A stretch of DNA of 20,204 nucleotides, from positions 1 through 20,204 of the IMG/VR virus record IMGVR_UViG_3300032242_000908; one strand, given 5' to 3'. The notes beneath the pieces were generated by a model. That model saw only the letters and a program-made list of their open reading frames with translations. It did not search any database and was not told the DNA's origin. Of this stretch, positions 10,325 to 18,016 are shown in pieces. The position numbers and the translations under genes were made by a program. The stretch is from a virus. The stretch's first letter is position 1, and each line of letters begins with the position of its first letter.

Positions 10325-10339
10325 GTTGCACTGTGCAAC
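10325..10339 (+). repeat. Palindromic repeat copy 1
   Basis: GTTGCACTGTGCAAC, a 7+1+7 palindrome. It lies in the leader of the first early gene, 21 bases before its ATG, followed by ACTTTCTTACTGGAGAAACC. Confidence 0.95.
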
Positions 10340-11714: not shown

Positions 11715-12506
11715 ATGCCCAAGCTATTAACCCGAACGCCCTTCCAACGCCGCGTCGAAGAACACGCTGCCATCGTCAAAAACACCATGCGGAAGGTGAA
11801 GATAAAGGACACAGTGTGTAGAAACTTGTGGCGTGAGTTGGTGTACCCGCTACGCCGTGAGCGTGCCAAGGTGCAGACAAGCGTCGACTACTACGCCCGC
11901 AAGCCGGACGCTGACCCCTATCAGCGCGACACAAACGCTGCATACCTTGCCCTGCTCATAAAACTGGAGGGCAAGCTCGTGGCATGGCAGACGCTGTACG
12001 AAAACCACACGCCCAAGCAGATGGCGCTTGAGAAGGGTGTAGCCAACCACGGGGCGCATTGGTCTGACTGGATACCCACGCACATACGCGACCACTTTGT
12101 GTCAGCGTACCAAAACATAGCTGCCAACCGAAAAGGTGGGCAAGCGCGTACCCCGTTCGAGAGAGAACCCGCACCAAAGCTACCGCCCAAACGCCCTCGA
12201 CGGGTGTCTAAAGCACCCATCCGCCCGCCCACGCCCATCGAAGAACTGCGCGACCGCATGAAGGCGCTCGACGACGAGGCACTACGCACCACAGACCCAC
12301 ACAGAAAGGAGGAACTACGCATGGCCATCATCGCCCTACGCACAGAGCAGGACGAGTTACGCAAGGAAAGGGCGCGCCGCAGGGCATCCGCATACTACCT
12401 CGCGCAAAAAGAAAAGTACGCAGGCATAACAAAGAAAGTTAGGGAGAAACTGAAAGCGTTGCACAGTGCAACACCAAATCAACCACCACTAGGAGAAAGC
12501 AAATGA
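11715..12506 (+). CDS. Highly basic, charged early protein, unknown
   Basis: The 263-aa protein is rich in Arg, Lys and Glu. The N-terminal ~140 residues are predicted helical (RVEEHAAIVKNTMRKVKIKD and a central segment GAHWSDWIPTHIRDHFVSAY). A Pro/Arg-rich linker (KLPPKRPRRVSKAPIRPPTP, about 156-175) leads to a C-terminal coiled coil (RDRMKALDDEAL... RTEQDELRKERARRR). Nucleic-acid binding or a replication accessory role is plausible from charge. No family is recognised. GGAG precedes the ATG. Its last codons contain palindrome copy 5 in reverse, and its stop overlaps the next gene by 4 bases. Confidence 0.75.
   Translation: MPKLLTRTPFQRRVEEHAAIVKNTMRKVKIKDTVCRNLWRELVYPLRRERAKVQTSVDYYARKPDADPYQRDTNAAYLALLIKLEGKLVAWQTLYENHTPKQMALEKGVANHGAHWSDWIPTHIRDHFVSAYQNIAANRKGGQARTPFEREPAPKLPPKRPRRVSKAPIRPPTPIEELRDRMKALDDEALRTTDPHRKEELRMAIIALRTEQDELRKERARRRASAYYLAQKEKYAGITKKVREKLKALHSATPNQPPLGESK
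12458..12472 (-). repeat. Palindromic repeat copy 5 (reverse orientation, inside CDS)
   Basis: GTTGCACAGTGCAAC on the plus strand is the exact reverse complement of the other copies. It lies in the last codons of the 263-aa gene, encoding A-L-H-S-A-T, 30 bases before the next ATG. On its own strand it is followed by GCTTTC, as other copies are by rCTTT. Confidence 0.95.
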
Positions 12507-13472: not shown

Positions 13473-13481
13473 GAAATAAGT

Positions 13482-13496
13482 GTTGCACTGTGCAAC
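13482..13496 (+). repeat. Palindromic repeat copy 6
   Basis: Exact GTTGCACTGTGCAAC, nine bases after the preceding stop codon and ~53 bases before the amidoligase-like gene ATG. It is the last copy in the window. Confidence 0.95.
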
Positions 13497-13549
13497 ACAA
13501 ATCCGTGGTGACTGCGGTTCAGTCACAAACCAACCTAGGAGAAATCAAA

Positions 13550-15250
13550 ATGCAACAAGCATATAAGTTCACGCGTATCGTTTCCCGTGATGCCACTGAG
13601 AACGACCGCTTCATCGCGGCACAGTGTCTGACGAACTCTCGCACCATCATCTACGACAAGGCTAATTACCGTTGCCGTACCACATACGCCGTCTACAGCA
13701 CAGACATTTGGGAGAGCTTGCAAATCGGCGGCTCTGGCACTAGGCACGTTGGGCCGGTGACCCACGCGCTCGTAGATATGAGTGAGCGGGAATTCATACA
13801 CCTATCTAACGAGTACCCGAGTGTCATGGCAAGGCTGCACAGTACCCCCGATAGCCAAATCATGCTAGACCGGCGTTGGGAGGATGCGTTCTCGCATCGG
13901 TACGCAAAGGTGTTGGGCCTCGCGCCAGCACTTCCGAATAACACCTGTCGTATCGACGGGCGTAGTGTGTCGCCACACACATTCATTCGCATCAAGAAAT
14001 ACCGACAGGAGTTGACTGCTGCTATCGCTGCGCGTGAGCAGGGCGATGTGTTCGACTGCTTGCAGTCTCTGCACGATGTGTTTGGCAGCGGCTTCCTGAT
14101 TACGCGTGCGATGGATGCCGTCAACGAAATGGGGTGGATGGACGACACCATCTGCCTCCCTGACTGCGGGCATCTTGCGTGGCATAACGACACGAACACT
14201 GTCGAGGGTGAGCAGTGGTGCCAGTCATGCTTCGAGGATGAAGCTGTGTATGTTGAGAACCGCGATGAGTATATGCGGCGCGGCAATGCGTACGAGCACA
14301 GCAACGGCTGCTACTACACCTACGAGGAGGAGAACGACGAGGACGACGACGACGAGGACGACGACGAGCCTACGCAGTTGATGGGCTACTCCACCAATGT
14401 GCTGCGCCACATAACCAAGGATGACAGCATCAAGTCCAGCCCGTTCGGTAACTTCCTGATGGGTGTTGAGTTGGAGATGTGTTCGGGTTCGCGTAGCACT
14501 GTTGATAACGCTGTGCGTGATGTGCTAGCGCAGTTCGGTGACGACTACTGCATATGCAAGTCCGATGGTTCCCTGCCCGATGACGGGCTGGAGATTGTCA
14601 CTGCGCCGCGTGGTCTTGCCGAGCACATCGAGCGCTTCAAGAAGTGGAACATCAACACCTCGTATCGTGCGTGGAACAACAATCGGTGCGGGATGCATGT
14701 ACACATTGACGCCAATGCGTTCAGCCAGTTGACGCTGGGTAAGTTCCTCATCTTCATCAACGCCGAGGACAACAAGGACTTCATCCGCAAGATAGCTGGC
14801 CGTCATCCGGCTATTGATATGCAAGCGCAACGCTACTGTGCGATGGACGGGCAAGAGCAGTTGGCCAACCCCAAGACCGCGGTGCAGGGCAAGAGCAACG
14901 AGCGCTACTACATGGTGAACCTTGCCAACCTGACCAGTGCAGGGGCGGTGCGGTTGGGTCTGCCTGACTGGAAGTTCTCCGGCAAGTACAACACTGTGGA
15001 GTTGCGTATCTTCCGCGCCTCGCTCAAGAAAGAGCGTCTGCTTGCACAGTTGGAGTTCACCCATGCTGCTGTGATGTTTGTTCGTGCCGCGTCCTATCGT
15101 GAGCTGACTGGTGGGGCGTTCGTTACATGGCTCAAGAAATACAACGTCCTGTATCCGCACCTCGCTGCGTGGTATGGCGTTGCGCCCATCAAGAAAGCCA
15201 ATCCCAACACGACAGTCGTCGTGTCGTCCGATGAAACTGTTTCCGCTTAA
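13550..15250 (+). CDS. Amidoligase-like protein (COOH-NH2 ligase family)
   Basis: The 566-aa protein has two parts. Residues ~304-566 show the amidoligase order: MGVELEM (304-310) as metal/ATP-binding Glu residues, KSDGSLPDDGLEIVTAPRG (337-355), CGMHVHID (380-387), RYYMVNLANL and TVELRIFRAS (482-491). This fold is related to glutamine synthetase/ATP-grasp enzymes, which use ATP to join a carboxyl to an amine; the substrate is unknown. The N-terminal ~300 residues carry a possible zinc site (C202, C206, H208, C224, C227) and an Asp/Glu tract at 259-273. The start at 13550 follows CTAGGAGAAATCAAA; a longer upstream extension would run through palindrome copy 6. The class II glutamine amidotransferase 24 bases downstream is its likely partner. 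Confidence 0.85.
   Translation: MQQAYKFTRIVSRDATENDRFIAAQCLTNSRTIIYDKANYRCRTTYAVYSTDIWESLQIGGSGTRHVGPVTHALVDMSEREFIHLSNEYPSVMARLHSTPDSQIMLDRRWEDAFSHRYAKVLGLAPALPNNTCRIDGRSVSPHTFIRIKKYRQELTAAIAAREQGDVFDCLQSLHDVFGSGFLITRAMDAVNEMGWMDDTICLPDCGHLAWHNDTNTVEGEQWCQSCFEDEAVYVENRDEYMRRGNAYEHSNGCYYTYEEENDEDDDDEDDDEPTQLMGYSTNVLRHITKDDSIKSSPFGNFLMGVELEMCSGSRSTVDNAVRDVLAQFGDDYCICKSDGSLPDDGLEIVTAPRGLAEHIERFKKWNINTSYRAWNNNRCGMHVHIDANAFSQLTLGKFLIFINAEDNKDFIRKIAGRHPAIDMQAQRYCAMDGQEQLANPKTAVQGKSNERYYMVNLANLTSAGAVRLGLPDWKFSGKYNTVELRIFRASLKKERLLAQLEFTHAAVMFVRAASYRELTGGAFVTWLKKYNVLYPHLAAWYGVAPIKKANPNTTVVVSSDETVSA
14324..14368 (+). repeat. GAC/GAG codon repeat encoding acidic linker
   Basis: A run of GAG, GAC and AAC codons, mostly GAC, encodes residues 259-273 (EEENDEDDDDEDDDE) between the zinc-ribbon-like part and the amidoligase domain. 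This is simple-sequence DNA prone to in-frame length change. Confidence 0.8.
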
Positions 15251-15274
15251 TCAATCTATCCAAGGAGAATTACT

Positions 15275-16366
15275 ATGTGCTTAATCATTACCGGTGCTTC
15301 CAACAAAATCCGTTCCACCCTGCTCGACACGGCGGGTATGCTTGCCAATATCTACACCGGCAACGCCGATGGTATTGGGTTCATGTATGGCACGAAGGAC
15401 GGCCTCAAGGTCAGCAAGTTCTTGCCCAAGTCAGAGAAGGATGCACGCTCTTTCATTCAGCGCTTGCCCAACGATGACCGCGATGTGGCTATCCACTTCC
15501 GCATGACCACGCATGGCGACACCGACCTCATCAACTGCCACCCTTACGATGTTGTGCCGGGTTGGATTGCCATGATGCATAACGGCATCCTGTCTATGGG
15601 TAACGCCGCAGACACGTCCAAGTCCGACACATGGCACTTCATCAAGGACTACCTGTCCGGCCCCGTAGAGAAGCATCCCGAGCTTATCTACGAGGAGCAG
15701 TTCCTCACGCTGCTTGCTGACTACATCGGCAACAACCGCTTCGTGTTCATGAACGGCGAGGGGCGTATGTCCCATGTCAACTTCAGACAAGGCATCGAGC
15801 ACGATGGTATGTGGTTCAGCAATACCTACGCATGGACACCATCCATGCTCATCCCCAGCTACAAGAGCCGGTATGCCAGCTACGCCAAGTACAGCGGCTA
15901 CAACGCGACAGCGTGGGACGACGAGGACGATGGGCATTACTACGGCAGCAAGTACAACGGCCGCACATACCCGTTCACCAGCCCTGCCAAGGCCAACCCC
16001 AGCGCACACAGCATTGGGTACAACGAGCGCGACTACGAGCCAGTCGAGGAAGCGGGTGAGCTTATTGATGTGAACTATATGCTGGAGCTGCTGATGTCTG
16101 CGGACGTGGACGAGGTGACCGAGTTGCTTGCCCACTCTACCGAGCAGATTGTCGAGATGACCTTTGCCGCGCTGCGTCCGGTGGCTACCCAGTACTCCCA
16201 CGCGGAGGACTTGCGTGGCGTAGAGAAGGCTGTGTTTGAGATGGTGCTGGACGAGGACACTGACGCCCTCATCAACTACTGCAAGTCAAGCTACAGCGCA
16301 CCGCAGATAGCTGCTGAGGTGATGTGCTACTACATCGACTGGGTTGACGCTCAGGTTACCCAGTAA
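15275..16366 (+). CDS. Class II glutamine amidotransferase
   Basis: The 363-aa protein starts M-C, placing Cys2 as nucleophile after Met removal. The N-terminal Ntn-hydrolase domain retains the full active site by comparison with GlmS: HFRMTTHG (H74-G81; R76, T79, H80), INCHPY (86-91), MHNGI with oxyanion residues N103-G104, and SDT (D118). It releases ammonia from glutamine, here probably for the amidoligase encoded just upstream. Residues beyond ~195 form a separate Tyr/Asp-rich then helical C-terminal region with no recognised acceptor domain, so the synthase half must be supplied by another protein. CAAGGAGAA precedes the ATG; a strong terminator follows. Confidence 0.92.
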   Translation: MCLIITGASNKIRSTLLDTAGMLANIYTGNADGIGFMYGTKDGLKVSKFLPKSEKDARSFIQRLPNDDRDVAIHFRMTTHGDTDLINCHPYDVVPGWIAMMHNGILSMGNAADTSKSDTWHFIKDYLSGPVEKHPELIYEEQFLTLLADYIGNNRFVFMNGEGRMSHVNFRQGIEHDGMWFSNTYAWTPSMLIPSYKSRYASYAKYSGYNATAWDDEDDGHYYGSKYNGRTYPFTSPAKANPSAHSIGYNERDYEPVEEAGELIDVNYMLELLMSADVDEVTELLAHSTEQIVEMTFAALRPVATQYSHAEDLRGVEKAVFEMVLDEDTDALINYCKSSYSAPQIAAEVMCYYIDWVDAQVTQ

Positions 16367-16374
16367 TCAGGTTT

Positions 16375-16400
16375 GGGGGTAGATGGTCTACCCCCTTTTT
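16375..16400 (+). terminator. Rho-independent terminator after the amidotransferase gene
   Basis: GGGGGTAGA (16375-16383), TGG loop, TCTACCCCC (16387-16395), then TTTTT (16396-16400). A 9-bp GC-rich stem makes it strong. It sits 9 bases after the stop and directly before the ribosome-binding site of the DUF2591 gene, so downstream genes need read-through, antitermination or another promoter. Confidence 0.9.
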
Positions 16401-17368: not shown

Positions 17369-18016
17369 ATGACAGACTTACGAACCGCAATGACTACCGC
17401 ACTCAGCGAGTGGGAACAGCAAGCCGAAGACGCCAACAAGCTAGGTGCAATCCGCGCAGCCCAAGCAGTAAACCCCGTGACTTCGGAGGGAACGGTCATA
17501 AAAGCCGCAGCCCCTGCAACCAAAACCAACCTGACCCGCGATACCTTCGCTATGGTTCGGGACAACCCCGGTATCTCACGCGCAGTTGCGATTGAACGGC
17601 TGCAAGCAATGGGGCACAAACCCGTGTCTACATCGTCCATCCTGTATCAGTTGGTCAGGGCCAAGATGATTGATGAAGGGCCTTTCGGTACGCTATCAAC
17701 CAAGCGCAAGAACTACACATCGCTAACCCACGCGCTGGAGAAAGCCCCCAAGGGCAGACGCAAGACGCGGGTGCAGAAGCCAAAGGCAGTGGAGCTAAAA
17801 GACGTCAGAAGCCCTGCCGGGTTTGTAGGTAAACCGTTGTGGTCACCGGAAGAACAGGCCGCGCCCCAACCGCAGGCTACCCCCACACCAGCGCCCGCAC
17901 CCAAGCCTCAACGGGTGTCAATGAACGTGGACGAGTGGCTCGACACCGTGCCCCTCAAGACTGCGCGACAGGTGTATTGGAAGCTGCACGGCATCTTCGG
18001 AGGGCAAGCAATATGA
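17369..18016 (+). CDS. Winged-helix DNA-binding protein, probable regulator
   Basis: The 215-aa protein has three parts: an N-terminal helix (1-30), a winged-helix-like domain at about 55-112 (RDTFAMVRDNPGISRAVAIE and STSSILYQLVRAKMIDEG, the latter as recognition helix and start of the wing), and a basic/Pro-rich linker (KGRRKTRVQKPK, then QPQATPTPAPAPKP) before a C-terminal motif VDEWLDTVPLKTARQVYWKL. The 'NPGISRAVAIERL' turn resembles MarR/replication-type helix-turn-helix proteins. Its promoter contains a palindrome at 17296-17315, suggesting autoregulation, but a replication-initiation accessory role is equally possible. CTGGAGAAACAA precedes the ATG. Confidence 0.72.
   Translation: MTDLRTAMTTALSEWEQQAEDANKLGAIRAAQAVNPVTSEGTVIKAAAPATKTNLTRDTFAMVRDNPGISRAVAIERLQAMGHKPVSTSSILYQLVRAKMIDEGPFGTLSTKRKNYTSLTHALEKAPKGRRKTRVQKPKAVELKDVRSPAGFVGKPLWSPEEQAAPQPQATPTPAPAPKPQRVSMNVDEWLDTVPLKTARQVYWKLHGIFGGQAI

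Follow-up and report, generated by a model that had tools for sequence, protein, structure and literature searches.

The window, by which we mean the whole stretch of 20,204 bases that was analysed, is a phage contig from an uncultured virus record in which genes for terminase, portal and capsid are present. The genes for the major head protein, the portal and the large terminase lie on the minus strand in its left half, and plus-strand genes lie in its right half, among them an amidoligase directly followed by a glutaminase (Table 1). The initial annotation had placed two adjacent genes here, and both are indeed present on the same strand, separated by 24 nt and each with its own ribosome-binding site, AGGAG 8 bases upstream of the ATG of the amidoligase and AAGGAG upstream of the ATG of the glutaminase. 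At 742-1119, beside the minus-strand structural genes, a 125-aa ORF on the plus strand shows, in addition, a Cys/His pattern resembling that of HNH proteins and is possibly a homing endonuclease.

Table 1. Features of the amidoligase-glutaminase locus, with positions in the window.
Feature	Position	Strand	Basis
Amidoligase (Amidoligase_2/PF12224), 566 aa: variable N-terminus, metal-binding motif, acidic linker, glutamine-synthetase-like core	13550..15250	+	PF12224, fold, conserved residues
Ligase N-terminal region, residues 1-195, fast-evolving, mostly unmodelled	13550..14134	+	dN/dS, pLDDT, length variation
Zinc-ribbon-like motif C206-G-H208 ... C224-x2-C227 of ligase	14165..14230	+	Invariance; metal binding putative
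Ligase acidic linker (EEENDEDDDDEDDDE), residues about 258-276	14321..14377	+	Alignment of relatives
Ligase GS/GCS2-like catalytic core, residues 297-546	14438..15187	+	YbdK 1r8g match, dN/dS
Class II glutamine amidotransferase (glutaminase), 363 aa, catalytic Cys2	15275..16366	+	EgtC/GlmS fold, invariant residues
Ntn glutaminase domain, residues 1-196	15275..15862	+	Aligned range 2-197 with EgtC/GlmS; dN/dS
Glutaminase C-terminal part, residues 197-363: low-confidence linker, then helical domain	15863..16363	+	Model, dN/dS
Intrinsic terminator 3' of the pair	16375..16400	+	9-pair stem, loop 3, TTTTT
Leader of the pair: Shine-Dalgarno AGGAG 13537-13541; palindrome GTTGCACTGTGCAAC 13482-13496	13473..13549	+	Sequence

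The pair ends in a terminator as originally claimed, a hairpin of 9 pairs at 16375-16395 followed by TTTTT. On the plus strand a search for promoters gave none before 17269, the leader of the pair included, and none of the terminators predicted on this strand falls between the pair and the gene ahead of it. The palindrome of the leader, GTTGCAC(T/A)GTGCAAC, occurs in six exact copies in the window (at 10325, 10770, 11058, 11683, 12458 and 13482), before small plus-strand genes. The initial annotation had assigned it to the pair, but the closest relative, L002, has three copies of which none precedes the ligase, and the palindrome is absent from all other loci; it is therefore not part of the module but a feature of the leaders of this particular phage lineage, possibly an operator. 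The notion of a self-contained module is thus upheld only in part, by linkage and by the terminator, whereas the leader lends it no support, since a promoter was not found and the palindrome is not conserved.

That the first gene encodes an amidoligase, as proposed, stands on profile, fold and conserved residues alike. The product scores clearly above cut-off against PF12224 (32.7 vs 22 bits), residues 346-506 aligning with profile columns 75-243, and PHROGs 'amidoligase enzyme' families likewise match it; a sequence search against solved structures gave no matches. In an AlphaFold model built from 15 relatives the core is confident and pLDDT falls below 50 at residues 1-140. Residues 295-546 match YbdK (1r8g) with a VIA Z of 10.6 over 211 residues and an rmsd of 4.2, and in the fold search the core also matches many glutamine synthetases and the Pup ligase PafA. 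A core of the glutamine-synthetase or ATP-grasp kind had been anticipated in residues 304-566, and residues 295-546 model as the former, a glutamine-synthetase-type fold, and not as ATP-grasp. The residues G305, E307, E309, D339, E348, H383, H385 and H419 are invariant in all 71 ligases aligned; R452, N457, E484, R486 and R489 are present in 70, the remaining sequence being gapped, R413 likewise in 70 (K in one) and D387 in 69 (H in two). The conserved acidic, His and Arg residues are of the kind expected at a metal and ATP site. The core is under strong purifying selection with a dN/dS of 0.16-0.18 (0.18 over residues 304-566).

The region ahead of the core is of a different character, since residues 1-195 evolve fast (dN/dS about 0.5-0.57) and the length of the N-terminus differs between relatives. 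C206, H208, C224 and C227 are nonetheless invariant in 71/71 relatives, and the motif that they form looks like a zinc ribbon, which would make it a putative metal site. Between this Cys/His motif and the core an acidic run is found in every aligned relative and also in L107. In L002 (4265-4500) the ligase frame is broken near residue 58-67 and resumes in another frame, which suggests either that the extreme N-terminus is dispensable or that the assembly is in error. One subclade of ligases (L049, L050, L059, L063, L069 and L090) carries an extra C-terminal stretch of ~90-100 residues before the glutaminase gene; a conserved third gene in the ~380-nt gap of one subclade was considered and rejected, the gap being an in-frame C-terminal extension of the ligase. 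In L017 (4951-6000) an apparent inserted HNH-type gene separates ligase from glutaminase by a 1.1-kb gap, and an HNH gene is found at the same place, the amidoligase/glutaminase junction, in the LUZ24-like phage UFV-P2 (PMC3890496).

The second gene had been described as a class II glutaminase, and this holds on the strength of the fold and of an invariant catalytic set, whereas profile searches with class II models do not reach their curated cut-offs: the GATase_4 profile gives 13 bits, below its cut-off of 23, and the glmS profile 17 against a cut-off of 418 (E 0.0015), a score so far under the cut-off that identity with GlmS was rejected. The predicted fold is on the other hand a strong match. 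A model built from 16 relatives corresponds to the Ntn glutaminase fold, with VIA Z scores of 10.9 for EgtC, 10.6 for the glutaminase domain of GlmS and 8.8 for PurF, and the family profile aligns by sequence to PurF and GlmS over the R-W-A-T-H-G...HNG stretch; EgtC was not recovered by this sequence profile. Matches of the glutaminase to galectins were also seen and dismissed as chance, unsupported by the fold. C2, R76, T79, H80, N103, G104 and D118 are invariant in 57/57 glutaminases, and the motifs and residues first quoted from the window alone are all present and are family-wide features. We can conclude that the protein is a divergent class II (Ntn) glutamine amidotransferase and not GlmS. 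Residue 77, which lies in a GlmS-like R-W-A-T-H-G context, is W in 47 of the 57 sequences and M in the other 10, and in GlmS the tryptophan of this stretch gates the ammonia channel. The dN/dS is 0.12 for the Ntn domain and 0.16 for the C-terminal part, in which A347, C351 and W356 are invariant in alignment A1. In its C-terminal third neither a known fold nor a synthase domain was recognised, which agrees with the initial description of a glutaminase devoid of a synthase domain of its own.

The linkage of the two genes was assessed in loci from scans of a viral collection with the ligase family and with the glutaminase family, two sets that overlap. A glutaminase lies directly downstream at 73/80 ligase loci and a ligase directly upstream at 71/80 glutaminase loci, and the remaining 7 and 9 loci, respectively, are cut by a contig end. 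Within the family to which the window belongs, the pair is accordingly inseparable, with no exception either way among the loci with room, and instead of homologous phages in which the genes never co-occur, they are always found together where the contig allows. The two proteins furthermore co-diverge beyond what a nearby phage gene accounts for: their pairwise divergences correlate at 0.95, with a partial r of 0.84 given the nearby gene, as compared to -0.01 for ligase and neighbour given the glutaminase. Outside the family the adjacency recurs in Marvin gp105/gp106, MEP402 gp06/gp07, MW202733, a human-gut phage and LUZ24 gp18/gp19. In L113, a phage of Clostridioides, and in L114, a contig from a Microcoleus phage, a divergent ligase was seen with no glutaminase adjoining it.

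The pairing as such, including in phages, is already published, namely for LUZ24-like phages, phiEco32, Marvin and OM43 phages. The closest in layout are perhaps best considered one by one. Mycobacteriophage Marvin has an amidoligase (gp105) and a class II glutaminase (gp106) adjacent and in the same order as in the window, with profile alignments of E 2.6e-14 over 197 columns for the ligase and E 1.4e-12 over 152 columns for the glutaminase, and with Cys clusters ahead of the ligase core; it is however a separate lineage with a ligase identity of only 27%, and its glutaminase ends in a Cys cluster that is lacking from that of the window. The OM43 phages MEP401 and MEP402 (Zobellviridae) resemble the window in having adjacent amidoligase and GATase genes outside any larger cassette, with identities of 29% for the ligase and 32% for the glutaminase, but they belong to another phage family and host and their glutaminase is shorter. 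Their pair has been described as auxiliary genes (PMC10580990), in a paper that cites Iyer 2009 for phiEco32 and Marvin. In the LUZ24-like/phiEco32/RIO-1 cassette the amidoligase is likewise directly followed by the class II glutaminase (LUZ24 gp18-gp19), but the cassette adds a COOH-NH2 ligase, a RimK-annotated ATP-grasp protein and a gamma-glutamylcyclotransferase. The pairing has been reported for LUZ24-like phages (PMC3890496), for phage tf (PMC3517423) and for Pseudoalteromonas podoviruses, the latter together with a proposal concerning peptidoglycan and superinfection (PMC5498523). Finally, EgtA and EgtC of ergothioneine biosynthesis likewise combine a GCS2-type ligase with a class II Ntn enzyme, whereas the pair of the window is not adjacent to other ergothioneine-type genes.

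The genomic context was searched in 17 related records of 31-68 kb in addition to the window, which is itself a fragment. Neither the COOH-NH2 ligase (PF14395) nor gamma-glutamylcyclotransferase (GGCT, PF06094) gave a match in these 17 records, and PF14395 does detect LUZ24, which served as control. The RimK profile fails to match even in LUZ24, where it misses gp21, and gp21 used as query gave no match in the window or the 17 records, although divergence could hide a relative; the first and last of the additional cassette genes were thus not found in the relatives of the window and a gp21 relative was likewise not found, being possibly too diverged. In a 62-kb relative the pair is located between the terminase and a set comprising family A DNA polymerase, SNF2-type helicase and PD-(D/E)XK nuclease, with the polymerase on the strand of the pair and ~6 kb downstream of it; the module accordingly sits on the early, replication side. 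Two genes to which no function is assigned (window 11715-12506 and 17369-18016) are conserved around the pair in 60/78 and 46/78 distinct loci, respectively. The matches in cellular genomes were an Oxalobacteraceae MAG contig and Pelistega indica, both of the Burkholderiales, which hints at this order as the host group. A host origin of the pair itself was considered and rejected, since the profile matches only 1/300 genomes of the order of the MAG, the one matching contig being probably phage, and the module therefore belongs to phages.

Given the folds, the catalytic residues, the purifying selection, the obligate linkage and the co-divergence, we think it fairly probable that the two proteins are subunits of a glutamine-dependent amide synthase which the phage employs while infecting its host. 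In the small subunit Cys2 would be exposed as the N-terminal nucleophile and convert glutamine to glutamate and ammonia, and from the co-occurrence of the two genes we infer that the ammonia is handed to the ligase, presumably within a physical complex. With ATP and Mg the large subunit would turn a carboxylate into an acyl phosphate and join the ammonia to it, so that the product would be a carboxamide, i.e. a primary amide, and the metal-binding motif, the acidic linker and the variable N-terminus of the ligase probably hold or select the substrate. Against an amide synthase it should be mentioned that EgtC, the closest solved fold of the glutaminase, acts as a gamma-glutamyl amidohydrolase and does not donate ammonia, that divergent ligases exist without an adjoining glutaminase (L113 and L114), and that the glutaminase scores below curated profile cut-offs. 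By analogy with what has been published for related phage cassettes, one might speculate that the pair acts on a cell-wall peptide or some other component of the host surface and serves to exclude other phages.

As for what is modified, the pair may act on host peptidoglycan peptides or other surface components and thereby block superinfection, as suggested for phiEco32, LUZ24-like and RIO-1-like podoviruses, and we consider this reading possible but rather unlikely. It draws on a published proposal for a cassette with the same two enzymes (PMC5498523; PMC10580990) and on the direct succession of gp18 and gp19 in LUZ24. It is however only a proposal in those papers, the ligase shows weak homology with gp18 of LUZ24, and the COOH-NH2 ligase and gamma-glutamylcyclotransferase of the cassette were not found in the 17 related records.

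The main rival concerns the chemistry, namely that the ligase, similar to EgtA, joins an amine to gamma-glutamate or a different acid, and that the Ntn enzyme, similar to EgtC, later removes glutamate as a hydrolase rather than donating ammonia. In the structural comparison the Ntn enzyme is matched best by EgtC and the ligase by YbdK, which like EgtA is of the gamma-glutamylcysteine-ligase type, and the glutamyl-binding residues would be identical for both reactions. However, GlmS and PurF match about equally well and are recovered by the sequence profile whereas EgtC is not, W or M at residue 77 stands in the R-W-A-T-H-G context of GlmS, and no third pathway enzyme is conserved beside the pair. 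The fold search does not separate the two reactions and the GlmS-like position 77, as read from the alignment, only leans towards ammonia transfer; we nevertheless regard an EgtA/EgtC-like pair as rather unlikely.

If the pair instead amidated a nucleotide or a DNA base, so that the phage DNA would be protected by the modification, this would be in keeping with the position of the module on the replication side, upstream of the family A DNA polymerase in the 62-kb relative, and with a zinc-ribbon-like motif that could contact nucleic acid, but the reading is made improbable by the absence of the thymidylate synthase/hydroxymethylase family and of QueC from the window and the 17 related records. 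That the two enzymes are independent and neighbours merely by joint inheritance is highly improbable, since even though contact between the proteins is only conjectured and some divergent ligases have no adjoining glutaminase, the loci with room show no exception either way, the co-divergence exceeds that with a nearby gene, and the same adjacency exists in phages of unrelated lineages.

Returning to the amide synthase, a more far-reaching version may be entertained, albeit tentatively and with little confidence, in which the pair is a minimal two-gene module that moves freely in a large family of uncultured phages, probably of betaproteobacteria. It would amidate one particular macromolecule of the host, singled out via the metal motif and the fast-evolving N-terminus of the ligase, as an offensive or exclusion mechanism that has no characterised counterpart. 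Annotations of amidoligase-glutaminase pairs in phages go back to about 2009, and experiments on any such pair were not found in the searchable literature. What sets the present family apart is that the pair stands alone, in the absence of a COOH-NH2 ligase or gamma-glutamylcyclotransferase, and that the ligase carries an invariant C-x-H...C-x2-C putative metal site. The pair in the window's family is a stripped-down form of a known phage system, and since this family is reduced to two inseparable genes with a conserved active site, what such phages amidate, and why, becomes addressable in a system of two proteins, where otherwise a cassette of seven genes would be needed.

Zinc-ribbon-like Cys clusters are found at the N-terminus of the ligase in the window, in both proteins of Marvin and at the C-terminus of the glutaminase in LUZ24 (L110 3767-6107 and L117 9902-11434 being the Cys-cluster loci), and from these sequences it would seem that one and the same recognition part may reside in either of the two proteins.
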